63,499 nucleotides of DNA, from assembly GCA_025057275.1 (NCBI GenBank), contig JANWXQ010000039.1, forward strand, positions 1-63,499. Direction: 5' to 3'. The notes beneath the pieces are model-generated. The model was not told the DNA's origin, ran no database searches, and saw only the letters and a program-made list of their open reading frames with translations. Position numbers and translations under genes: made by a program. Numbering within the stretch: the stretch's first letter is position 1; the number at the start of each line of letters is the position of its first letter. The stretch is from Chitinophagales bacterium. Lineage in GTDB: Bacteria > Bacteroidota > Bacteroidia > Chitinophagales > UBA10324. This document shows, one piece after another, positions 6,744 to 29,475 of this stretch.

Positions 6744-6839
6744 AATCTATTTTGGCATGGAGATTGAACTTTCGGGGTGAAAATACCTGAAAAATTCAAC
6801 CGTCATCAAGCGAGTGTTAACCTGAAAAATCATCGGAAC

Positions 6840-8186
6840 ATGAAACCGTTACTCATCCTCACCCTTGCAGCCCTGGTTGCTGCCTCTTGTTCCACCAGCA
6901 GCAAAACGGCGCGGGTGGAAACCGATGATATCTATGTTTCCAAAACCACACCTACCGGCAAACCTGCGCAAACGCAGCAGCCCGGTGCGTCGGGTAACTA
7001 TTCCGAAGAAAACAGGTCCGATGCACCCGATGCCGAAAGCCGTTCCTCACAGCCCGACTACAGCTATTCGGAGCAATACAGCGATGAACAGGGTAACACG
7101 TACATCACCAACAACTATTACTACGGCAACAATTACGACTTTTACGACAGCTACTCCTCCAGGCTCAGCCGTTGGTACGATCCCTACTGTGGGTTTAGCT
7201 ACTTCAGTCCGTATTACTTAGGATGGTCATGGGGCTATCCTGTTTACTACACTCCCGGATTTTCCTTCAGCATTCATTTCGGATGGGGCTATGGTTGGTA
7301 TTATCCATGGTATAGCCCGTGGTATTATCCGCCGGCCTGGTATTCCTGGTATTCGCCCTGGTACTACGATCCGTGGTATTCCCCGTGGGGTTGGAATCCC
7401 TACTGGGCCTATGGTTATCCTTACTACGGCAGCTACTGGCATGGTTACTGGCACGGCTACTACCATGGCTACAACGATGCATTGGGCTGGGGCTCTGGTC
7501 GCTATTACTATGGACCCCGGGGCTCCTCGTCCAGCAACGTGCCCGGGAGTAGCGGCGGCGGACGCCAGTTCCGCACCGGCAACGACAATACCGTAATGGC
7601 CAGTGCCGTCAGCGTAGTGAATCGTCCGGTACAGCGGCCGGCTACCATCAACCGAAGCCACAGCGTGCAAAATGTCATTCCCGCTTTGCAAGGCAAGCCG
7701 TCCCGACCGGTAGAAACTCCTTCGCATGCCAAGCCGGCCCATCCGGACCAGCCGGTATCCAAGCCTTACCGACCTGAGGTCAAACCGGTTCCGGAAGGCA
7801 TTCATTCACCCAACAGGCCTAGTAGCGAACCGGTGCGACCGCAAAAGCCCTCTCAGCCAAAAAATCCTTCCATGGATAAAGAGCAGCCGGGTTTGACCGA
7901 ACCGCAGATGCGTCCGCGAAACCAGCAGCCTGTTCCTCCAAAAGGAATGGGGCAAAGGATGCCCGAACAGGCAGCTCCGGGCTCTTCCGATAAGTACTTT
8001 GAAGGAAGCGGAGGAAACAAAAAGGTAGGCTTCGAACGCATGCGCAGCAGCCGTCCCGACAGCGGCTCCGGCCAGCGCCTGGAATGGGAAAGCAGCGGCA
8101 ACCGCAATGTGGAAAACAGCCGCTCGCAAGGCGGTTCCTCATCGGGTAGCCGACCCTCCGGCTCTTCCAACCGTCCGCCCAGATAA
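6840..8186 (+). CDS. Tyr/Trp-rich putative lipoprotein, function unknown
   Basis: I do not recognise a characterised family. The start at 6840 is chosen because it gives a lipoprotein-type signal (MKPLLILTLAALVAASC, with Cys-17 as the acylation site; the -3 position is Ala, so the lipobox is atypical). The first ~110 residues are Ser/Thr/Glu-rich. Residues ~95-220 are dominated by Tyr and Trp (repeats of the kind WYSPWYY). Residues ~230-448 are Pro/Ser/Arg/Lys-rich and look disordered. The translation is 448 aa. The frame is intact and uses the same codon style as its neighbours. It lies 39 bases upstream of the FadL-type porin gene on the same strand, so the pair may be cotranscribed. Such aromatic-rich proteins occur in Bacteroidota envelopes, but their role is not established. 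Confidence 0.75.
   Translation: MKPLLILTLAALVAASCSTSSKTARVETDDIYVSKTTPTGKPAQTQQPGASGNYSEENRSDAPDAESRSSQPDYSYSEQYSDEQGNTYITNNYYYGNNYDFYDSYSSRLSRWYDPYCGFSYFSPYYLGWSWGYPVYYTPGFSFSIHFGWGYGWYYPWYSPWYYPPAWYSWYSPWYYDPWYSPWGWNPYWAYGYPYYGSYWHGYWHGYYHGYNDALGWGSGRYYYGPRGSSSSNVPGSSGGGRQFRTGNDNTVMASAVSVVNRPVQRPATINRSHSVQNVIPALQGKPSRPVETPSHAKPAHPDQPVSKPYRPEVKPVPEGIHSPNRPSSEPVRPQKPSQPKNPSMDKEQPGLTEPQMRPRNQQPVPPKGMGQRMPEQAAPGSSDKYFEGSGGNKKVGFERMRSSRPDSGSGQRLEWESSGNRNVENSRSQGGSSSGSRPSGSSNRPPR
7292..7470 (+). repeat. Degenerate coding repeat for WYSPWYY-like units
   Basis: Within the lipoprotein gene the codons tgg-tat/tac recur every 4-8 codons between Pro, Ser, Gly and Asp codons, giving the stretch of residues ~150-210 that is mostly Tyr and Trp. 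The DNA units are similar but not identical, which indicates old or constrained repetition and not recent slippage. Confidence 0.7.
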
Positions 8187-9804: not shown

Positions 9805-11706
9805 ATGGCCTATTCCTCGCTGCAGCACTTTGTGCACGAACTGGAGCGGGCCGGTGAGCTCCGGCGCATTTCGGTCTTCGTAGATCCTCATTTGCAGATT
9901 ACCGAAGTAACCGACCGCATCGTCAAGCAGGGTGGGCCGGCGCTGCTGTTTGAAAACACGGGAACGGAATTTCCTTTGCTCATCAATGCGTATGGCTCTG
10001 CCCGCCGCATGGCCATGGCGTTGGGGGTGGATGATCTGGAAACCATTGCCCGTCGGTTTGAAACGCTGTTTGGTGAACTGATGCGTCCGCGCGATGGCAT
10101 TCTTCAGAAGCTTTCCCTGTTGCCGCAACTCGGCGCATTGGCTTCCTGGATGCCTAAGGTGAAACGGGGCAGGGGAGCCTGCCAGCAGGTGGTTATGGAT
10201 CAACCGGACCTGCGCAAGCTTCCGGTGATGACCTGTTGGCCTGAGGATGGCGGCCCGTTTATTACCCTGCCGGTTATCCATACCCGCGATCCGCACACCG
10301 GTATCCGCAACGTGGGCATGTACCGCATGCAGGTGTTCGGACCGGATCTCACGGCCATGCACTGGCACAAGCATAAGGTGAGCGCCAAACATTTTGAGGC
10401 TTACAAGAAATTGGGCCGGCGCATGCCCGTGTCGGTAGCGTTGGGCGGCGATCCGGTCTATGCCTATGTGGCAACGGCTCCTTTGCCGGAAAATGTGGAT
10501 GAATACATATTGGCCGGTTTCATCCGGCGAAAGGCAGTGGAACTGGTTAAATGCCTGACCAACGATCTGGAAGTGCCGGCCGATGCCGACATCATCATTG
10601 AGGGATATGTGGATCCGCAGGAAGACTTTATTCTGGAGGGCCCCTTCGGCGATCATACCGGTTTTTATTCGCTGGCCGATTACTACCCCAGGTTTCATGT
10701 AACCTGCATCACCCATAAACGGGAGGCCATTTATCCGTCCACCATAGTGGGGGTTCCGCCCCAGGAAGATGCCTGGCTGGGCAAGGCTACCGAGCGCATT
10801 TTCCTTGCGCCCATCCGCATGACGGTAGTTCCTGAAATCCTGGACATGGACCTGCCGGTGGAAGGCGTGTTTCACAACCTGACGATCATCAAAATCAAAA
10901 AAGAATTTCCCGGTCAGGCGGCCAAGGTGGCTCATGCCATGTGGGGCGCCGGTCAGATGATGTTCAACAAAATGCTCATCATCACCGATGAAACGGTGGA
11001 TGTGCACGATTATGCTGCCGTAGCCCGGGCCCTGACGGATAACGTTCATCCCGCTGAAGACCTTTTGTTTTCGCGCGGCCCAATGGATGTGCTCGACCAT
11101 TCTTGCAGCAGGTTTGCCTACGGAGGTAAGCTGGCTGTTGATGCTACCCGCAAGTGGCCGGAAGAGCGTCCCGAAGGCTCCAACGGGTTGCCCTTCAGTC
11201 CCATGAAGGAAGAAGAAAAGGCATACATCCTGCAGCGATGGCCTGAAATCACCGGCATCAACGACTCGCTGGGCCGGCAGGGGATTGCCATTGCGTTTCT
11301 GGCATTGCGAAAAAGCAGACCCCATCAGCTCAGGGAAATCGTTTATCCGCTGATTCAGGAAACAGCCTTGGGCCGGAACCGGTTTGTTGTGGTTTTGGAT
11401 GAGGGCATGGACCTGGAAGACGTAGGCATGCTGGTCTGGCGGTGGAGCAACAGTTACGATCCGGTTCGCGACACCGTTGTGGTTCCCGCGGCCGGCGGAG
11501 CCTGTGCCGTGCTGGACGGCACCCGCAAGACCCTTCGGCTGGACGGATTTGAACGCCCCTGGCCCAACGTGATCTGTTCCCGCCAGGATACCATTGCGGC
11601 GGTGGACCGTTTATGGCCCTCATTGGGGTTGGGTCAGTTGGTTCCTTCGCCCTCCCTTCGGCTGCTACCCCAGCTAAAGGGAGCCGGTGCTGTGGCAGCG
11701 GAGTAA
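9805..11706 (+). CDS. UbiD-family decarboxylase (menaquinone/aromatic acid type)
   Basis: A prenylated-FMN-dependent decarboxylase of 633 aa. The motif EGPFGDHTGFYSLADYYPRF contains the acidic residues and the G-D/E-x-x-G-Y/F-Y loop characteristic of UbiD enzymes, and TIVGVPPQEDAWLGKATERIF follows as in the family. The length and sequence style match the long UbiD-family proteins annotated in Bacteroidota as menaquinone biosynthesis decarboxylase. The substrate cannot be decided here: a quinone precursor is likely in a menaquinone-using phylum. The cofactor-making partner UbiX is not in the window. The ATG at 9805 is supported by the conserved start MAYSSLQHFVHELE and by the -7 box just upstream. 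The gene stands alone between the FadL gene and the HmuY-like operon. Confidence 0.92.
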   Translation: MAYSSLQHFVHELERAGELRRISVFVDPHLQITEVTDRIVKQGGPALLFENTGTEFPLLINAYGSARRMAMALGVDDLETIARRFETLFGELMRPRDGILQKLSLLPQLGALASWMPKVKRGRGACQQVVMDQPDLRKLPVMTCWPEDGGPFITLPVIHTRDPHTGIRNVGMYRMQVFGPDLTAMHWHKHKVSAKHFEAYKKLGRRMPVSVALGGDPVYAYVATAPLPENVDEYILAGFIRRKAVELVKCLTNDLEVPADADIIIEGYVDPQEDFILEGPFGDHTGFYSLADYYPRFHVTCITHKREAIYPSTIVGVPPQEDAWLGKATERIFLAPIRMTVVPEILDMDLPVEGVFHNLTIIKIKKEFPGQAAKVAHAMWGAGQMMFNKMLIITDETVDVHDYAAVARALTDNVHPAEDLLFSRGPMDVLDHSCSRFAYGGKLAVDATRKWPEERPEGSNGLPFSPMKEEEKAYILQRWPEITGINDSLGRQGIAIAFLALRKSRPHQLREIVYPLIQETALGRNRFVVVLDEGMDLEDVGMLVWRWSNSYDPVRDTVVVPAAGGACAVLDGTRKTLRLDGFERPWPNVICSRQDTIAAVDRLWPSLGLGQLVPSPSLRLLPQLKGAGAVAAE

Positions 11707-11794: not shown

Positions 11795-11802
11795 TAGCTT
11801 TG
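11795..11802 (+). promoter_or_regulatory. -7 box of the HmuY-like operon
   Basis: TAGCTTTG fits TAnnTTTG and lies 19 bases before the ATG at 11822. A TTG at a correct distance for the -33 element is not evident, which would be compatible with an activator-dependent promoter. Confidence 0.45.
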
Positions 11803-11821: not shown

Positions 11822-13084
11822 ATGAAAAAGTTTGTACTGCTTATCTTTTCTCTGCTTGCTTTCCGAATAATGGCCTGGGCACAAATTCCTGATTCAGTGG
11901 TTATGGAAGCGGGTTACACTCATCAGGTGTATTACCAGCTTTCTGATGGCAGCCGCACGCCGGTTGCCCTGGCCAGTTGGGACATTGGATTTCAGACTTC
12001 CCTGATGACCGCTTCCATCATGATCAACGAAAGCTCGGTGGCCTTGTATTACGCAGCCGGTGCCGATACCAGCCAATACGCTACGCTGGATGTGAGCAAT
12101 TACACCTCATGGCCACGTTACTACAACAGCGAGCAAAGCTGGAACATCGGAGCCTTTAATCAACTGGCTAATCCGGGCAATCAGTTCGACTTTGGCTGGG
12201 GCGTTTATGATTTTACCCAGCACACCGTATTTGGCACCCGTTTGTTTGTTGTGGAATCCGGAGGCCAGGCGTACAAATTCTGGATCCGTAAAAAGACGTC
12301 CACCGGCGATTACGTTATCCGCTATACGCCTATTGCAACAGGCGCTGCTGACGTAAACATTACCTTGTCAGCTTCTGCTTACAGCACCAAGAATTTTGTT
12401 TACCTCAAGCTGGCAACTTCCTCGGTGGTGGATCCGGAGCCGGCATCCTGCTGCTGGCAGATGCTGTTTACCCGGTATGCCAGCAATATTCCCGGTTTGG
12501 GCTACTACATGGTGACCGGCGTTTACATTGCTCCCGGCGTTAAGGCTGTAAAAGCATACCCTGTGGATGTGGAAACCGATTCGTTCCAGCTGCATCAGAG
12601 CGGATTTTCCACCAAACTGACCACCATTGGCTACGACTGGAAATATTTCGATCCGGTTACCATGATGTACGTATTGGAGGACAGCCTGTTGTATTACGTG
12701 CAGGATGCTACGGGTAAGAAGATCTGGCGGCTGCAATTCACCGGTTTCGACCACCTGAAAGGCCTCATCAAGTTTACCCGCCAGCTGGTTTACGATGCTA
12801 CTGTGGGAATGGAGTCTGCCGGACCTGCTCTGCTCGATTTCCGGATCGTTCCTAACCCCACCAGCGGAAACCTGTCACTAACCCTTGGCGTGCCGGTTGC
12901 AGGCTCCTTTACCGTGTCTGTACGAGATCTTTCGGGCAAGCCATTTCTAACCCGTCAGCTAATGGCTCACGAAGGATTGAATGTTGTGGGCATGAGTGTG
13001 TCTGAAATTCCGGCAGGCATATACATCGTAGAGGTAAATAATGATCAGTTCAGCAGGCAAATGCCGGTGGTCGTTGTCCGATAA
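11822..13084 (+). CDS. HmuY-like secreted heme-binding protein with type IX sorting domain
   Basis: The 420-residue protein begins with a signal peptide (MKKFVLLIFSLLAFRIMAWAQ). The body resembles the HmuY family of Bacteroidota hemophores: an early SWDIGFQTS segment, a central WQMLFTRY ... GYYMVTGVYI segment and a late IGYDWKYFD ... KKIWRLQFTGF segment. The same landmarks occur in the lipoprotein encoded at 15315, so the two are paralogues. From ~338 onward it carries a type A C-terminal sorting domain (RIVPNPTSGNLSL ... PAGIYIVEV), which predicts export by the type IX system to the surface or medium. A vicinal Cys pair precedes the WQMLFTRY motif. The stop is 5 bases before the TonB-receptor gene. 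Heme as ligand is inferred from the family and the neighbouring receptor; other metal chelates or ligands remain possible. Confidence 0.8.
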   Translation: MKKFVLLIFSLLAFRIMAWAQIPDSVVMEAGYTHQVYYQLSDGSRTPVALASWDIGFQTSLMTASIMINESSVALYYAAGADTSQYATLDVSNYTSWPRYYNSEQSWNIGAFNQLANPGNQFDFGWGVYDFTQHTVFGTRLFVVESGGQAYKFWIRKKTSTGDYVIRYTPIATGAADVNITLSASAYSTKNFVYLKLATSSVVDPEPASCCWQMLFTRYASNIPGLGYYMVTGVYIAPGVKAVKAYPVDVETDSFQLHQSGFSTKLTTIGYDWKYFDPVTMMYVLEDSLLYYVQDATGKKIWRLQFTGFDHLKGLIKFTRQLVYDATVGMESAGPALLDFRIVPNPTSGNLSLTLGVPVAGSFTVSVRDLSGKPFLTRQLMAHEGLNVVGMSVSEIPAGIYIVEVNNDQFSRQMPVVVVR

Positions 13085-13089
13085 GTAAG

Positions 13090-15315
13090 ATGCTGCACAT
13101 TCCCAGAGCCGCCTGTTGCCGTTGGTTGATGGCCTGGTGGGCTGTTTCGGTAGAAGGCCTGTGCGCCCAATCTGCCACGCTTTATGTGCGGTCGGCGCAA
13201 ACAGATGCCCCCATTGTAAATGCCCTGGTCGTTTGGCATACCGATCGTCAGGGTATGCAGCAGGCATGGACGGCAGCCAACGGCTCCATTCAGTTTTCGC
13301 TGCATCAACCCGTCCGTTTTCAGGTATTTCACAGCGGCTATCAAATGCATTCCGACAGTCTGGCTCCGGGCCAGCATCGCATCATCCGGCTGCAACCGAT
13401 TGCCGTGGATCTGGGAGAAGTGGTCGTAACCGGTCAGCACCGTTTGACGTTATTGGCCGGATCGGTTTTGCCCGTTCGTGTGCTTAACCGGGATGAAATT
13501 GAGCAACGGCAGGCGCAGGATCTTTCTGACGTGGTAGCTTATGAACTGTGGGCGCGGATGTCGCGCGATGAAGTGCTGGGAAGCAATGCCTCCATTAACG
13601 GCATTTCGGGGCAAAACATCAAGGTGCTGCTTAACGGCTTGCCGGTAACCGGCCGTGAAAACGGCCATATTGATCTGGGCCAGATTACCCTGAACGATGT
13701 AGAGCGCATAGAAATTATTGAAGGCCCCCTGTCGGTGTTGTATGGCACTGATGCACTGGGTGGAGTGATCAACATCATCACGCAGCATCCTCCCGACTCC
13801 GGCCGTTCGGCTAATCTGCAGTTGTACACGGAAACCGTAGGCACCTACAACATCGCTGCCAGTGGCCAGGGACAATTCGGGGGGCATGCCTTTTTGATTT
13901 CCGGAGGCCGCAATTTTTTTTCCGGCTTTCCCGATTCAGATCAGCAGCGCCATCAGCTCTGGAAGCCTGAACTGCAGTATTTCGGATCCGTGGCGTATCA
14001 GCCGCAGTTGCCAAATTGGACGGTGGGTTTGCGCTCCGGATTTTTTTATGAAGAAATCCGCAATAAAGGGGAGCCGGTTATTACGCCGTATCAGGCCTAT
14101 GCATTTGATGATTTTTACTATGTACGACGGCTGTCGCAAACGGCCCAGGTGTCCCGGACCTTCTCGGGACAACGTAACTGGGAGCTTCAGGCAGGCTATA
14201 ATTTTTACAGTAGGAAAAAAGCAGCCTATCGGAAAGACCTGGTGACGCTGACCCAGCAGGAGCGGGAGGGAGAAGCCCAGCTCAACACCCTGGGGGAGTG
14301 GAGTGTGCGCAGCACCCTTTCGGGCATGTTGTGGCAGCAGCAGCTCAGCTGGCAGGCCGGTATCGACCTGAACGGGCAGCAGGCCACCGGCGACCGCCTG
14401 CTCGGCGATCGCAAACAACAAAGCGACCTGGCTGTTTTCGGCACGCTGGAATATCAGGCTACCCCCTCGTTAAGCCTGCGACCGGGGCTGCGTTTGGCGC
14501 ACAATGCCTACGGCGTTCCCCTAACCCCTGCTTTAAACCTGCGCTACGATTTTTCGGAGCACATTCATCTACGGGCTGGGCTGGCCCGGGGCTTCCGTGC
14601 CCCCTCGCTGAAAGAACGATATCTGAATTTCTATGACAGCAATCACTCCATTTACGGCAACCCCGAACTGAAGGCAGAACAATCGTTCAGCGCCAATATG
14701 TTCTGGCTTTTTGAATACGTCATGGGTGCAGTTCAACTCAATTCGGAAGTGGCCGTCGCCTACAACGACATCAGCAACCAGATCAACCTGAGTCTGGTGA
14801 ATGCGTTGGAGCAGGAATACACTTACATCAATGTCGGTCAGTATCGCACGCGAACGGCCACAGTGCAGACGGAAGCGCACTGGAACAGCTTGCGGCTGCA
14901 AGCCGGGTTCATGCTGCAGGCCATTTCCCATTCGTTAAACGATACCCTTGCCACGGATGGCTATGTGATTGCTCCGGAGTACCGGTTTCAGATTATGGCA
15001 GGCCAGCCCGATCGGAACCTGCGGGTGGCTTTGCTGTTTCGCCGCACGGCGCCCATGCCGGCCTTCAGCACCGATGCTGCCGGTGTTGTTTACGAAAAAA
15101 TTGCTCCGGCTTACAATCTGCTGGATGTAACACTGAGCCGTTCGCTTTGGCAGCAACGTCTCAGCCTGCATGCAGGCATTAACAATATCCTGAATGTGAA
15201 AGACGTTCCCAACCTGTCTTCCTCCACGGCAATTCATTCCTCTCAGGATGCCATACCTGTTGCCGTAGGCCGGTACGCTTTTTTGGGTATTAAGCTAAAC
15301 GTCATCGGTCCGTGA
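13090..15315 (+). CDS. TonB-dependent receptor, probable HmuR-like heme receptor
   Basis: A 741-residue outer-membrane receptor. A short signal region ends near GLCAQ; a carboxypeptidase-regulatory-like beta-sandwich follows (ATLYVRSAQTDAPIVNALV), then a TonB-box-like VVVTGQ and a plug domain with the diagnostic VERIEIIEGPLSVLYGTDAL and GGVINIIT. The 22-strand barrel contains the GLARGFRAPSLKERYL region shared by siderophore/heme/cobalamin receptors and the NPELKAEQS motif. It is sandwiched between two HmuY-like genes, 5 bases after the first and overlapping the second by one base, so it is very probably the uptake channel for the ligand those proteins bind. The substrate is inferred from this context. 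Confidence 0.92.
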   Translation: MLHIPRAACCRWLMAWWAVSVEGLCAQSATLYVRSAQTDAPIVNALVVWHTDRQGMQQAWTAANGSIQFSLHQPVRFQVFHSGYQMHSDSLAPGQHRIIRLQPIAVDLGEVVVTGQHRLTLLAGSVLPVRVLNRDEIEQRQAQDLSDVVAYELWARMSRDEVLGSNASINGISGQNIKVLLNGLPVTGRENGHIDLGQITLNDVERIEIIEGPLSVLYGTDALGGVINIITQHPPDSGRSANLQLYTETVGTYNIAASGQGQFGGHAFLISGGRNFFSGFPDSDQQRHQLWKPELQYFGSVAYQPQLPNWTVGLRSGFFYEEIRNKGEPVITPYQAYAFDDFYYVRRLSQTAQVSRTFSGQRNWELQAGYNFYSRKKAAYRKDLVTLTQQEREGEAQLNTLGEWSVRSTLSGMLWQQQLSWQAGIDLNGQQATGDRLLGDRKQQSDLAVFGTLEYQATPSLSLRPGLRLAHNAYGVPLTPALNLRYDFSEHIHLRAGLARGFRAPSLKERYLNFYDSNHSIYGNPELKAEQSFSANMFWLFEYVMGAVQLNSEVAVAYNDISNQINLSLVNALEQEYTYINVGQYRTRTATVQTEAHWNSLRLQAGFMLQAISHSLNDTLATDGYVIAPEYRFQIMAGQPDRNLRVALLFRRTAPMPAFSTDAAGVVYEKIAPAYNLLDVTLSRSLWQQRLSLHAGINNILNVKDVPNLSSSTAIHSSQDAIPVAVGRYAFLGIKLNVIGP

Positions 15316-16283
15316 TGCGTGGATTGAGCTTGCCGATGGCTTTCGGGCTGTTGCTGTCGCTGAGCAGTTGTTTCCGGGAAGATGTGCCGGTGGTTCTGCC
15401 TCCCCCCGGTGGGTTGCAATACCTGCAGGTTCCGCAAGGGCCTGATTACAGCCGGCAGTACTACGTGGACCTCGAAACCGCAGACACCCTTGGCATGCCG
15501 GTTTCCGTCTGGGATCTGTGTTTTGAAGCGCAGCCTGACGGCTGGCATGTCTGGATTAACGGAGCCAATCAGGCCCGCGTGGCGCAGACCACCGCTACCA
15601 GTCTCGCCGCAATAACCGACACGGCCGGTCTGGTCTGGAAAATGGATGCGCCCTCATGGAATCCGGATTCCACAGCCATCGGCGCCTGGCCTACGCATAA
15701 TTTTTTCTATGTGTTGGATCGGGGGCCTGCCTTTGCCGACAGCATTCGCTTTTACAAGTTCCAACTAACGGGTCTGAGCGCCATGGGATATCTGCTGACG
15801 CTTGCTGCCTTGAAGGACACGCTGCCCATCAATGTGGTCGTGCAGAAATTAATCGACCGGCAGTATATGTATTTTGCTTTCAACAAGTCGGCGCCTTTTC
15901 CGTTCCAGGAACCCCCCACTGACAACTGGGACCTGCTGTTCACCCGCTACCGCCACATTTTCACCGACCAGCAACCGCCGTTGCCCTATGTAGTTACCGG
16001 CGTGCTGATCAATCCTCAGGTAGCAGTGGCAGTGGATTCCACCATGGACTTTGATTCCATAACCTATGCAACGGTGCAGCAGTTGGAATTCACCAGCCGA
16101 CGCAACGTCATCGGATATGCCTGGAAATACTACGATTTTTCCGCCCAGGCCTTTGTAGTGCGCCCCTACATCAACTACATCATCCGCGACACCAAAGGCA
16201 TATACTGGAAACTTCGCTTTATAGATTTCTATAATTCAAACGGGCAGAAGGGCTATCCCACCTTTGCCTATCAGCAACTTTAG
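15315..16283 (+). CDS. HmuY-like lipoprotein
   Basis: The ATG at 15315 overlaps the receptor's TGA (TGATG), suggesting translational coupling; a GTG one codon upstream is a less likely start. The signal ends in a classical lipobox LSSC (Cys-19), so the 322-residue protein should be lipid-anchored, probably at the outer membrane. It shares the landmarks of the protein encoded at 11822: SVWDLCFEA, WDLLFTRY, YVVTGVLI, IGYAWKYYD and IYWKLRFIDF. This matches the HmuY family, whose founding member in Porphyromonas is a heme-binding lipoprotein. Unlike the first paralogue, it has no C-terminal sorting domain. It probably hands the ligand to the receptor at the surface. It ends 8 bases before the convergent phosphatase gene. 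Confidence 0.8.
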   Translation: MRGLSLPMAFGLLLSLSSCFREDVPVVLPPPGGLQYLQVPQGPDYSRQYYVDLETADTLGMPVSVWDLCFEAQPDGWHVWINGANQARVAQTTATSLAAITDTAGLVWKMDAPSWNPDSTAIGAWPTHNFFYVLDRGPAFADSIRFYKFQLTGLSAMGYLLTLAALKDTLPINVVVQKLIDRQYMYFAFNKSAPFPFQEPPTDNWDLLFTRYRHIFTDQQPPLPYVVTGVLINPQVAVAVDSTMDFDSITYATVQQLEFTSRRNVIGYAWKYYDFSAQAFVVRPYINYIIRDTKGIYWKLRFIDFYNSNGQKGYPTFAYQQL

Positions 16284-26677: not shown

Positions 26678-26751
26678 TCGGGGTGAGTGGACTCGAACCA
26701 CCGGCCCCCAGCACCCCATGCTGGTGCGCTAGCCAACTGCGCCACACCCCG
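26678..26751 (-). tRNA. tRNA-Pro (anticodon GGG)
   Basis: The minus strand folds into a standard cloverleaf of 74 bases: acceptor arm CGGGGTG / CACCCCG closed by discriminator A, D arm GCGC ... GCGC with AGTTGGCTA loop, anticodon arm CCAGC / GCTGG with loop ATGGGGT giving anticodon GGG, and T arm with GGTTCGAGTCC. The 3' CCA is not encoded (CTT follows the discriminator) and must be added by CCA-adding enzyme. Confidence 0.96.
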
Positions 26752-26764
26752 ATAGGGCCAAACA

Positions 26765-26772
26765 CAAAATTA
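26765..26772 (-). promoter_or_regulatory. -7 box of tRNA-Pro
   Basis: The minus strand has TAATTTTG (TAnnTTTG) 13 bases before the mature 5' end of the tRNA, leaving a short 5' leader for RNase P. The -33 element is unclear. Confidence 0.45.
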
Positions 26773-26799
26773 ATTGGGATTTCGTTAATGCCCGCTGAA

Positions 26800-26830
26800 T
26801 TGTCACGGCTGTGTAAATGGCCTATTTTTG
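26800..26830 (+). promoter_or_regulatory. Promoter of the 26836 receptor gene (TTG-N20-TAttTTTG)
   Basis: TTG at 26800-26802, a 20-base spacer and TATTTTTG at 26823-26830 match the Bacteroidota consensus. Only 5 bases separate the -7 box from the ATG at 26836, so the transcript is probably leaderless or has a one- or two-base leader. Confidence 0.65.
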
Positions 26831-26835
26831 CTTTT

Positions 26836-29475
26836 ATGCGTCATTTTTTGATATGCGCAGCTGCAATATTTTCTTCTTTGCACATGCATGCGCAGATTCC
26901 CGGGCGACCGGGATCCGTTACCCAGCAGCGAATGATGAACGTGGGTCATTTGTATGGCCGCGTTTTGGATCAACGTACGGGCAAGCCGGTGGAATTTGCC
27001 ACCGTTCAGCTGTTTCAGAATCAGTTTGATACGATTACGAAAAAAATCGTCAAGCGGCTGGTAGGCGGCGCCCTGACCGAGGAAAACGGTGAGTTCTCCA
27101 TAGAAAATCTTCCCGTGTTGGGTGAGTTTCAGTTGCTTATCAGCGCTATCGGCTACGACTCGCTGGAACGCAATGTGTCGTTTGATATTGACCTGAAGCG
27201 GGTGCAGCAAGGTGACTGGCAGCGGGCCCTGGCAGCAGTGAACAAGGATCTGGGAAACCTGCGGCTTTCGCAGCGGCTGGTGGAATTGGGTGAAGTAGTG
27301 GTCAGCGGTTCCGAACCCTTGTATCGGGTGGAGCTCGACAAGCGGGTGTATAATCCGTCAAAAGACCCCAGCAATGCCGGAACTACTGCGGATGAAGTGC
27401 TTCGTAAGGTGCCGTCCGTTAACGTGGATCTGGACGGTAACGTAACGTTGCGTAATGCCACGCCGCAGATTTTCGTGGACGGCAGGCCAACGACGCTCTC
27501 TCTGGATCAGATTCCCTCCGATGTGATTGATCGCATAGAGGTGATTACCAACCCTTCCGCTAAATATGATGCATCGGGAGGGCAAAGCGGCATTATCAAT
27601 CTGGTTTTGAAAAAGAACCGGCGCATCGGCTACAACGGCAATCTGCGGGGTGGTGTTGACCGCTACGGCAAGTTTAATCTGGGCGGCGATATCAATGTGA
27701 GGCAGAAAAAAATTAATGTGTTTGCTTTGGCCAATTATCACCAGCGCAAGTCGGTAAGCACTACGCATACGGAGCGCGATGATTTTAGCAGCAGTCCGGG
27801 ATTGTTTCTGTTGCAGCGGGATACCGGCACGGCCAATGGTCAGTTCGGGTATTTCAATCTGGGCACCGATTATTTCGTTACCAACCGCAGCACAATTACC
27901 TTGAGCGGCAACTACACATTGGGCCGCTTTGAACCCTTTACTTCAGCCTTTCTGATCACCGACACCCTTCGGGAGCCTCCGGTCAGCACCCTCACCGAGC
28001 GCGTTTCGGATAATCGCCGTCGTTTCAATAATGTGGGAGGCACAATAGCGTTCAAGCATTTGTTTCCGCGTGAAGGCGACGAGCTGACTGCTGACCTAAA
28101 CTATAACGTGAACCGCGGCCGGCGAACTAGCCTGTTGGAATCGCAATACTTTGATGCCGGCGGCCTGAACCCTTCGCCTGTATTTGTTCAGGAAGAAAGC
28201 GGCAGCACCGGATTTTCCTTATTTGTCGGACAAACCGATTACAAACGAAAAATCAACAAGAACAGCAAGCTGGAAACAGGCCTGCGGTTTAGCCAGCGCA
28301 TCTTCGACTCCCAAAACGACATCTGGATTCGCAACCCCATAACCGGCGACACAATTCCAGTAGACGATTTCAATAATTATCAATACAATGATCGGGTGCT
28401 GGCTGCCTACGCCACCTTCGGTAATCAGATTAGGCAGTTTCAGTATCAGTTCGGTCTGCGTGCCGAAAGCTATTTTTACGATGGCCGCCTTACGGATACC
28501 ACCCTGGAATATGCCAATCATTATCCGGTCAGTCTTTTTCCGAGTGCCGCCATCTCTTACGAACTGAGCAACAACAGCCACCTGCAGCTCAACTACAGCC
28601 GCCGTATCGACCGACCCGGCTTTTTCCAGCTTTGGCCATACATGGATTACAGCGACTCGCTGAACCTTTCCCGGGGCAATCCGGGCCTGAAACCACAGTT
28701 TACCCACACCGTGGAACTAGGCTGGGAGGAACAGATGGAAAACAACAGCAGTCTGGCAGTTACCGCCTATTACAAATACACCACCAACATGATCACCCGC
28801 TATCAGCAGCTGGAACTGGATCCGGAGCTGCAGCAGGAGGTGATTGTCAACACGTTTCAGAATGCTGATGCCAGCAGTATGGCCGGTGTGGAACTTTCTG
28901 CCATGCTCAATTTCGGAAAACGGTTTTCTCTTTCTATCAACCCCAACGTGTACCAGACTCTGATAGACGGCACGAACATCGAGGCCAACCTGAAGGCAGA
29001 GCAGTTCAGCTGGAATGCCCGAACCAATTTTACGGTACGCCTTCCGGAGCAAATAACCCTTCAGTGGAGCATGGATTACCAGTCGCGCAATCTGGTCATG
29101 CAGGGTGGCGGCCGGTGGGGCGGTCCGGGCATGGGCACCGGCATAGGCATGTCAGGAGCTTTTGGATCACCGCCGGCAACAGTTCAGGGATACACCGATC
29201 CGGTTTTTTATTCTGACCTTTCGTTGCGCAAGGATTTTCTCAAACAACGAAATGCTTCGGTAACGTTGTCGTTCAGCGACATCTTCCGTTCGCGACGCGT
29301 CAAAACCTATTACGATACCGATTTCTTTTACCAGTGGTCGGATCGCCTGCGCGATCCCCAGATGGTGCGCCTCAACCTGAGCTACCGGTTCGGAAAATTT
29401 GATACCCAGTTGTTCCGTCGAAAGAATCTGCGGATGGACGGGGAAATGCTGCAAGACCTTGGCGGCATGCAGTAG
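26836..29475 (+). CDS. Outer-membrane beta-barrel receptor (TonB-receptor-like, OMP_b-brl_3 type)
   Basis: A 879-residue protein. The ATG at 26836 starts a clean signal peptide (MRHFLICAAAIFSSLHMHAQ); the frame extends further up but through the tRNA and promoter. A carboxypeptidase-regulatory-like domain follows (GHLYGRVLDQRTGKPVEFAT), then a plug domain with TADEVLRKVPSVNVDLDGNV, IFVDGRPTTL and DRIEVITNPSAKYDASGGQ, and a barrel of the 'outer membrane beta-barrel family' type containing YSRRIDRPGF and GNPGLKPQFTHTVELG. A Gly/Met-rich loop (GGGRWGGPGMGTGIGMSG) sits in a late external loop. No canonical TonB box is evident. Substrate unknown. It is a single gene; the next gene begins 65 bases on. 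Confidence 0.9.
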   Translation: MRHFLICAAAIFSSLHMHAQIPGRPGSVTQQRMMNVGHLYGRVLDQRTGKPVEFATVQLFQNQFDTITKKIVKRLVGGALTEENGEFSIENLPVLGEFQLLISAIGYDSLERNVSFDIDLKRVQQGDWQRALAAVNKDLGNLRLSQRLVELGEVVVSGSEPLYRVELDKRVYNPSKDPSNAGTTADEVLRKVPSVNVDLDGNVTLRNATPQIFVDGRPTTLSLDQIPSDVIDRIEVITNPSAKYDASGGQSGIINLVLKKNRRIGYNGNLRGGVDRYGKFNLGGDINVRQKKINVFALANYHQRKSVSTTHTERDDFSSSPGLFLLQRDTGTANGQFGYFNLGTDYFVTNRSTITLSGNYTLGRFEPFTSAFLITDTLREPPVSTLTERVSDNRRRFNNVGGTIAFKHLFPREGDELTADLNYNVNRGRRTSLLESQYFDAGGLNPSPVFVQEESGSTGFSLFVGQTDYKRKINKNSKLETGLRFSQRIFDSQNDIWIRNPITGDTIPVDDFNNYQYNDRVLAAYATFGNQIRQFQYQFGLRAESYFYDGRLTDTTLEYANHYPVSLFPSAAISYELSNNSHLQLNYSRRIDRPGFFQLWPYMDYSDSLNLSRGNPGLKPQFTHTVELGWEEQMENNSSLAVTAYYKYTTNMITRYQQLELDPELQQEVIVNTFQNADASSMAGVELSAMLNFGKRFSLSINPNVYQTLIDGTNIEANLKAEQFSWNARTNFTVRLPEQITLQWSMDYQSRNLVMQGGGRWGGPGMGTGIGMSGAFGSPPATVQGYTDPVFYSDLSLRKDFLKQRNASVTLSFSDIFRSRRVKTYYDTDFFYQWSDRLRDPQMVRLNLSYRFGKFDTQLFRRKNLRMDGEMLQDLGGMQ

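Follow-up and report, generated by a model that had tools for sequence, protein, structure and literature searches.

The locus and its three genes

The window, that is the whole stretch of 63,499 nucleotides from a Chitinophagales bacterium that was analysed here, contains three consecutive open reading frames on the plus strand in the ORF listing, which we refer to as A, R and B. As reported in the initial annotation, the stop codon of A and the start codon of R are 5 bases apart and the TGA of R and the ATG of B share base 15315; an alternative GTG start of B, 3 bases earlier, would lead to a 4-base overlap with R. The closest named genome is that of the Chitinophagales MAG SKYG18 (66% identity for B), and a scan against a viral collection gave no match. 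About 20 bases upstream of the start codon of A lies TAGCTTTG (11795..11802, plus strand), a candidate Bacteroidota -7 promoter element matching TANNTTTG. With 19 occurrences in the window against 27 expected, the motif shows no enrichment, and the assignment of TAGCTTTG as promoter element of A is only suggestive; promoter and terminator scans yielded nothing exceeding shuffled sequences. Directly 5' of A a UbiD-family decarboxylase is encoded (9805-11706, plus strand), which scores over the cut-off of the menaquinone model TIGR03701, and ORFs of similar size occupy the same place in four related loci (L032, L033, L035, L037). Elsewhere on the plus strand the window encodes a second large protein resembling TonB-dependent receptors, whose N-terminal domain is of the carboxypeptidase-regulatory type (26683-29475), and a low-complexity protein with a very high content of Trp, Tyr, Gly, Ser and Pro (6777-8186).

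Gene A (11822..13084, plus strand, as for all following features) encodes a protein of 420 aa. It starts with a signal peptide (aa 1-21, 11822..11884) that ends in AWAQ and is without a lipobox; Gln21 is kept in at least 90% of the A relatives. Two HmuY-like halves follow, an N-terminal one (aa 22-185, 11885..12376), supported by hhalign against the C-terminal half, and a C-terminal one (aa 184-326, 12371..12799), supported by hhalign with its counterpart in B. The C-terminal sorting domain of type IX secretion (type A; aa 338-420, 12833..13081), which had been noticed in the first inspection, was recognized by both PF18962 (29.4 bits) and TIGR04183 (32.1 bits) over their cut-offs, and in the A alignment 25 of the 26 sequences match it as well. 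In the AlphaFold model this part resembles known type IX C-terminal domains (VIA Z 11.9 to that of mirolase, 11.4 to that of PorU). The type IX translocon component SprA is present in the same genome. Both the sorting domain and SprA thus identify A as a predicted type IX cargo of type A.

Gene B (15315..16283, 322 aa) encodes a double HmuY-like protein, predicted to be a surface lipoprotein. The lipobox proposed earlier was confirmed and reads LSSC; its Cys19 is kept in all 82 relatives and is followed by FREDV (15360..15386). The resulting CFREDV fits the surface-export signal C-X-K-(D/E)2-X with Arg replacing Lys, a signal defined as C-X-K/R-(D/E)2-X in Capnocytophaga (PMC5080379). Among the relatives of B, 43 of 82 carry the strict K/R-(D/E)2 form and 78 of 82 a looser pattern; none of the five HmuT lipoproteins that could be read in related loci (CTPADQ, CQSAGE, CGPSSE, CNSSEQ, CNSGAK) carries the signal. 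A and B are therefore both predicted to face outward. The N-terminal half of B (aa 33-180, 15411..15854) aligns only with positions 1-72 of PF14064 (21 bits, under the 27-bit cut-off) and the C-terminal half (aa 178-322, 15846..16280) only with positions 82-157 (37 bits, over it). The assignment of both proteins to the HmuY family, when searched with PF14064, held directly for B (57.2 bits, cut-off 27; 29 of 30 alignment members at E <=0.01). A of the window itself did not match, but 21 of 26 members of its alignment did.

Gene R (13090..15315, 741 aa) encodes a TonB-dependent outer-membrane receptor (PF07715 and PF00593). The best NCBIfam receptor model is TIGR01785 (TonB-hemin), at 109 bits below its cut-off of 317; TIGR01786 reaches 91 bits (cut-off 324), likewise below, and TIGR01779 (TonB-B12), with 104 bits against a cut-off of 600, nearly equals the hemin score. 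In the alignment R contains the heme-receptor signature FRAP (aa 502-505), His519 and NPEL (aa 524-527) at 14593..14670, and His519 is kept in every one of 73 receptors. A second invariant residue, His716 (15235..15237, 73 of 73), lies near the C terminus. In HemR, the combination of His461 with FRAP and NPNL is reported to be a hallmark of heme receptors that other TonB receptors do not conserve (PMC6449446), and CirA and FepA have no His in the stretches aligned to the His519 region. No plug His of the HemR His128 type is conserved among the His positions of R across the 73 receptors compared. With respect to the clustering of the receptor, which was named at the outset as a touchstone of the heme assignment, R is nearest to CirA, FepA and BtuB among solved receptors by overall sequence score. 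Taken alone, clustering is thus not decisive. R would work like a heme receptor, though not filed as a TIGR01785 member, and its ligand is probably heme.

Common ancestry and internal duplication of A and B

The likeness of A and B, first noticed as shared landmarks in the same order, is real. BLASTP (E = 3e-13) and profile-profile comparison (100%, E = 8e-52, about 308 columns) rule out a chance similarity, and in the latter the homology extends over the full length except for the sorting domain, the N-terminal halves aligning too. The AlphaFold models (pLDDT 90 for B, 91 for A) were both matched best by solved HmuY proteins in the VIA comparison. B gave Z 16.5 to PinO, 15.3 to HmuY, 15.2 to Bvu and 15.1 to BfrB, with a range of 14.8-16.5 across PinO, HmuY, Bvu, BfrB, BF2707 and Tfo. 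A gave 12.9 to PinO, 12.2 to Bvu and 11.9 to HmuY (range across HmuY, PinO, Tfo, Bvu and BfrB 11.1-12.9), and BfrC reached 12.6 with B and 11.2 with A. The matches to HmuY, PinO, Tfo, Bvu and BfrB align 128-157 residues. For the whole A model, Foldseek puts other beta proteins on top and VIA puts HmuY proteins there. By these models, A and B share the HmuY all-beta fold.

In a tree built from the bodies of 58 A and 82 B proteins, the two form separate clades with a support of 0.998. By this clean division the pair is ancient, with one old duplication splitting the sorted from the lipid-anchored form. The split between a type IX-sorted and a lipid-anchored copy that had been noticed at this one locus is borne out by the sorting signals as well as by the phylogeny, and it is old.

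Each protein also seems to be internally repeated, a feature that the initial annotation did not mention. Using hhalign, the N-terminal half of A matched its own C-terminal half (E about 2.5e-8) and that of B (E = 7e-9), and the N-terminal half of B matched its own C-terminal half (E = 5e-7) and, more weakly, that of A (E = 2e-5); the two C-terminal halves match each other at E = 9e-39 (probability 100%). In 120 column-shuffled control comparisons no E value was better than 0.02, and nothing comparable was obtained with reversed halves, with pieces of the receptor or with the sorting domain. Since the N- and C-terminal halves are related, A and B each appear to consist of two HmuY-like units in tandem. 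A single HmuY domain in B with an unrelated insert is less likely, given matches between N- and C-terminal halves at E 5e-7 to 7e-9. VIA structural matches of B span residues 31 to 322.

Neither protein has a conserved counterpart of the His pair that ligates heme in Porphyromonas gingivalis HmuY. Across relatives, B has no conserved His or Met, and A has a single one, His134 (48 of 58). Heme binding by A or B can therefore not be read from the sequence. Axial ligands (His-His or Met-Met) vary among known HmuY members, so that the lack of the pair is compatible with membership, and both Tfo, which uses Met, and HfpY bind heme without the HmuY His pair.

Distribution, heme genes and the predicted need for heme

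The initial annotation described the arrangement for this organism. It is not confined to it, A-R-B being widespread across Bacteroidota. We compared 64 named loci. Since the B profile that served to recruit them had itself been derived from loci of this type, the counts describe variants and not an unbiased survey. A, R and B are adjacent in 32 named Bacteroidota loci, A is parted from R-B by other genes in 7, and the order is R-B-A in 1. R-B occurs without A in 3 loci and 5 further R-B loci end at a contig edge; B occurs without R in 15 loci, 6 of them cut by a contig end, and 1 locus stayed below the threshold. Of the 43 loci in which R comes before B and the flanking sequence can be seen, 40 have A. 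In a phylum-wide sample, a joint A/B profile matched in 60 of 392 genomes. Variant layouts, namely R-B-A, two directly adjacent HmuY-like genes and divergent pairs about 4 kb apart, were seen in L051, L052, contig C11 of G482 and genomes G309, G387, G496, G590 and G607. Lone B-like lipoproteins without R or A (L040, L043, L084, L089, L090, L105, L107, L109, L111) lie in another gene context, that of L040 near ATP synthase beta for example, and perhaps represent a subfamily with another role.

In several relatives, the genes of a heme transporter and/or of HemS lie within or beside the locus. The order A-hmuT-hmuU-hmuV-hemS-R was found in L056 and L057 and, judged by gene sizes, in L058; A-hmuTUV-hemS-R-B in L069, L086, L112 and L133; A-R-B-hemS-hmuTUV in L091 and hemS-hmuTUV-R-B in L096. 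In L104, hemS lies two genes beyond A-R-B. L057 and L069 were tested by family models, their ATPases exceeding the NCBIfam heme equivalog cut-off and their HemS/ChuX domains being strong; for the remaining loci, the heme genes were identified by their resemblance to the L057 genes. L133 (CP034120.1), a complete isolate genome titled Glaciecola amylolytica (Gammaproteobacteria), encodes another type IX cargo too; its neighboring genes resemble those of Bacteroidota and the record title may be wrong. The interval between A and R in L101 (3440-6693) encodes a CbiX-type chelatase with a lipoprotein-like start, an FMN-binding/4Fe-4S membrane protein, a hemerythrin-like protein and a DUF6686 protein, and L087 probably has the same insert, as its ORFs are of similar sizes. 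By analogy with HmuS, the L101 insert may be a periplasmic module for the removal of iron from heme.

The genome from which the window derives is 99.4% complete, and single-family searches found neither ferrochelatase nor ALAD (HemB) in it, yet it encodes two COX1 heme-copper oxidases. Thus the organism probably must import heme, and we predict from its gene content that it is a heme auxotroph. A FecCD permease, HemS and CobN were likewise not found in this genome; any inner-membrane heme step therefore may use something else or may be unneeded for membrane-bound cytochromes. Among 299 genomes of the same order, ferrochelatase is absent from 53 of the 65 with a strong B match, compared to 66 of 234 others (odds ratio 0.09, Fisher p 9e-15, kinship being ignored). 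Twelve strong-B genomes retain the enzyme. It is also present in G208, G228, G264 and G049, the sources of L057, L056, L058 and L069, respectively, where imported heme may serve as iron source.

Ligand, proposed relay and relation to known systems

Taken together, hmuTUV-hemS synteny, the invariant His519 of the receptor and the predicted auxotrophy of the host support the heme reading of the initial annotation, and heme is very probably the ligand of the system. We consider it likely that A-R-B is an operon for heme acquisition at the outer membrane that belongs with HmuYR but has two hemophore-like proteins. That A and B serve one import path is also likely, while the placement of A upstream of B as a relay has an even chance; heme binding and the order A to B to R are what we infer. 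The following mode of action is the most likely one. A would be exported by the type IX system to the medium or the outer cell surface, where it would capture heme or strip it from hemoproteins. B would be attached by its lipid anchor to the outside of the outer membrane beside R, as HmuY is with HmuR, would receive heme from A or directly, and would pass it on to R. TonB-dependent import through the FRAP-His-NPEL region of R would then bring heme to the periplasm. Because heme synthesis genes are missing in this organism, the imported heme is probably used as a cofactor; in relatives with hmuTUV-hemS it would also enter the cytoplasm as a source of iron. To this full two-stage relay, in which the type IX system delivers A as a double-domain hemophore, B caps R as a paralogous lipoprotein that also has two domains, and both arose from one ancient duplication, we assign a probability of roughly 0.45.

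Potentially, A and B might instead be parallel hemophores for different sources or conditions, such as free heme and hemoproteins, each docking on R without transfer between them. The ancient separation of the two clades would fit such a scheme, as would loci that have R-B only (L123) and the A-bearing loci L056, L057 and L058, where R occurs without B, so that either protein may function with R on its own. The retention of A in nearly all loci with R before B suggests joint use, although parallel use is compatible with it, and overall we regard this scheme as rather unlikely. A role of A outside import, as an adhesin-like or sequestering surface protein in biofilm formation, heme storage or denial of heme to competitors, is improbable. 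Deletion of a type IX-secreted HmuY in Flavobacterium columnare left growth unaffected (PMC9618737), and a link between HmuY and biofilm has been reported for P. gingivalis (PMC2873494), but A is tightly conserved directly 5' of R with short spacings.

The ligand itself could be another metal chelate or tetrapyrrole, such as cobalamin, a siderophore or degraded heme, for which HmuY-fold proteins had been recruited. The B12 model score close to that for hemin, CirA, FepA and BtuB as the nearest solved receptors and the lack of conservation of the HmuY His pair point in this direction; the hmuTUV-hemS synteny of relatives, the FRAP-His-NPEL signature and the association of B with the absence of ferrochelatase argue against it, and we consider such a ligand improbable as well. 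A cobalamin system in particular was rejected, since no cobalamin riboswitch was found in the window and hmuTUV-hemS synteny was observed instead.

The closest known system is HmuYR of P. gingivalis, described as an experimentally confirmed complex of a surface lipoprotein and a receptor (PMC12578637). There too a HmuY-fold surface lipoprotein adjoins a TonB-dependent heme receptor with FRAP/NPNL-type motifs, and the host is a heme auxotroph. However, the hmu locus has one HmuY with two His ligands and no type IX-sorted partner, and it continues with the hmuSTUV (CobN-like) genes, whereas CobN and HemS are absent from the genome studied here. In Flavobacterium psychrophilum, HfpY, a very divergent relative of HmuY that binds heme without a known ligand pair, is co-transcribed with its receptor as HfpR-DoxX-HfpY; only a single HmuY-like protein is described, with the DoxX gene in between and no receptor sandwiched by two copies (PMC9331221). 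C6N29_01035 of F. columnare, the protein of the deletion mentioned above, is of the same kind as A (PF14064 and Por_Secre_tail, reported as type IX-secreted), but no paired receptor or lipoprotein was described and the lack of a growth effect refers to in vitro conditions (PMC9618737). In Prevotella intermedia, hmuY adjoins a type IX cargo gene and both are strongly induced by iron starvation; no receptor was reported between them and the cargo was not described as HmuY-like (PMC10434189). BtuBG, XusAB and SusCD each have a TonB-dependent receptor that is loaded by a surface lipoprotein, which is what we propose for R and B, although folds and ligands of these lipoproteins differ from B. To our knowledge, none of the three has a type IX-delivered paralogue. 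Heme delivery by a secreted hemophore to its receptor is carried out by HasA and HasR in Serratia, where the hemophore has an unrelated fold, is secreted by a type I system and is not known to have a second, lipid-anchored copy.

Known before were therefore HmuYR, HfpRY, a lone type IX-secreted HmuY and hmuY beside a type IX cargo gene. The earlier suspicion that the sandwiched arrangement was undescribed holds for the open-access literature, in which a type IX-secreted HmuY alone has been published (PMC9618737) and we found no description of a HmuY duplication or double HmuY domain. Within this literature, the conserved placement of a receptor between a type IX-sorted and a lipid-anchored HmuY is new, as are the double HmuY domain and the association with missing ferrochelatase. 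A-R-B is a real and conserved variation of HmuYR heme uptake.

HmuY studies have so far centered on host-associated bacteria and on one lipid-anchored copy per receptor. A-R-B presents the family as a conserved pair, one copy being routed through the type IX system, in largely environmental and mostly uncultured Bacteroidota. The internal duplication of A and B bears on the evolution of the HmuY fold. The link to missing ferrochelatase suggests dependence on heme released by neighbors, a community-level dependency for which the locus may serve as a genome marker. If true, the two-stage relay would be kept across Bacteroidota orders and would supply heme to bacteria, for the most part environmental, whose own heme synthesis has been lost.
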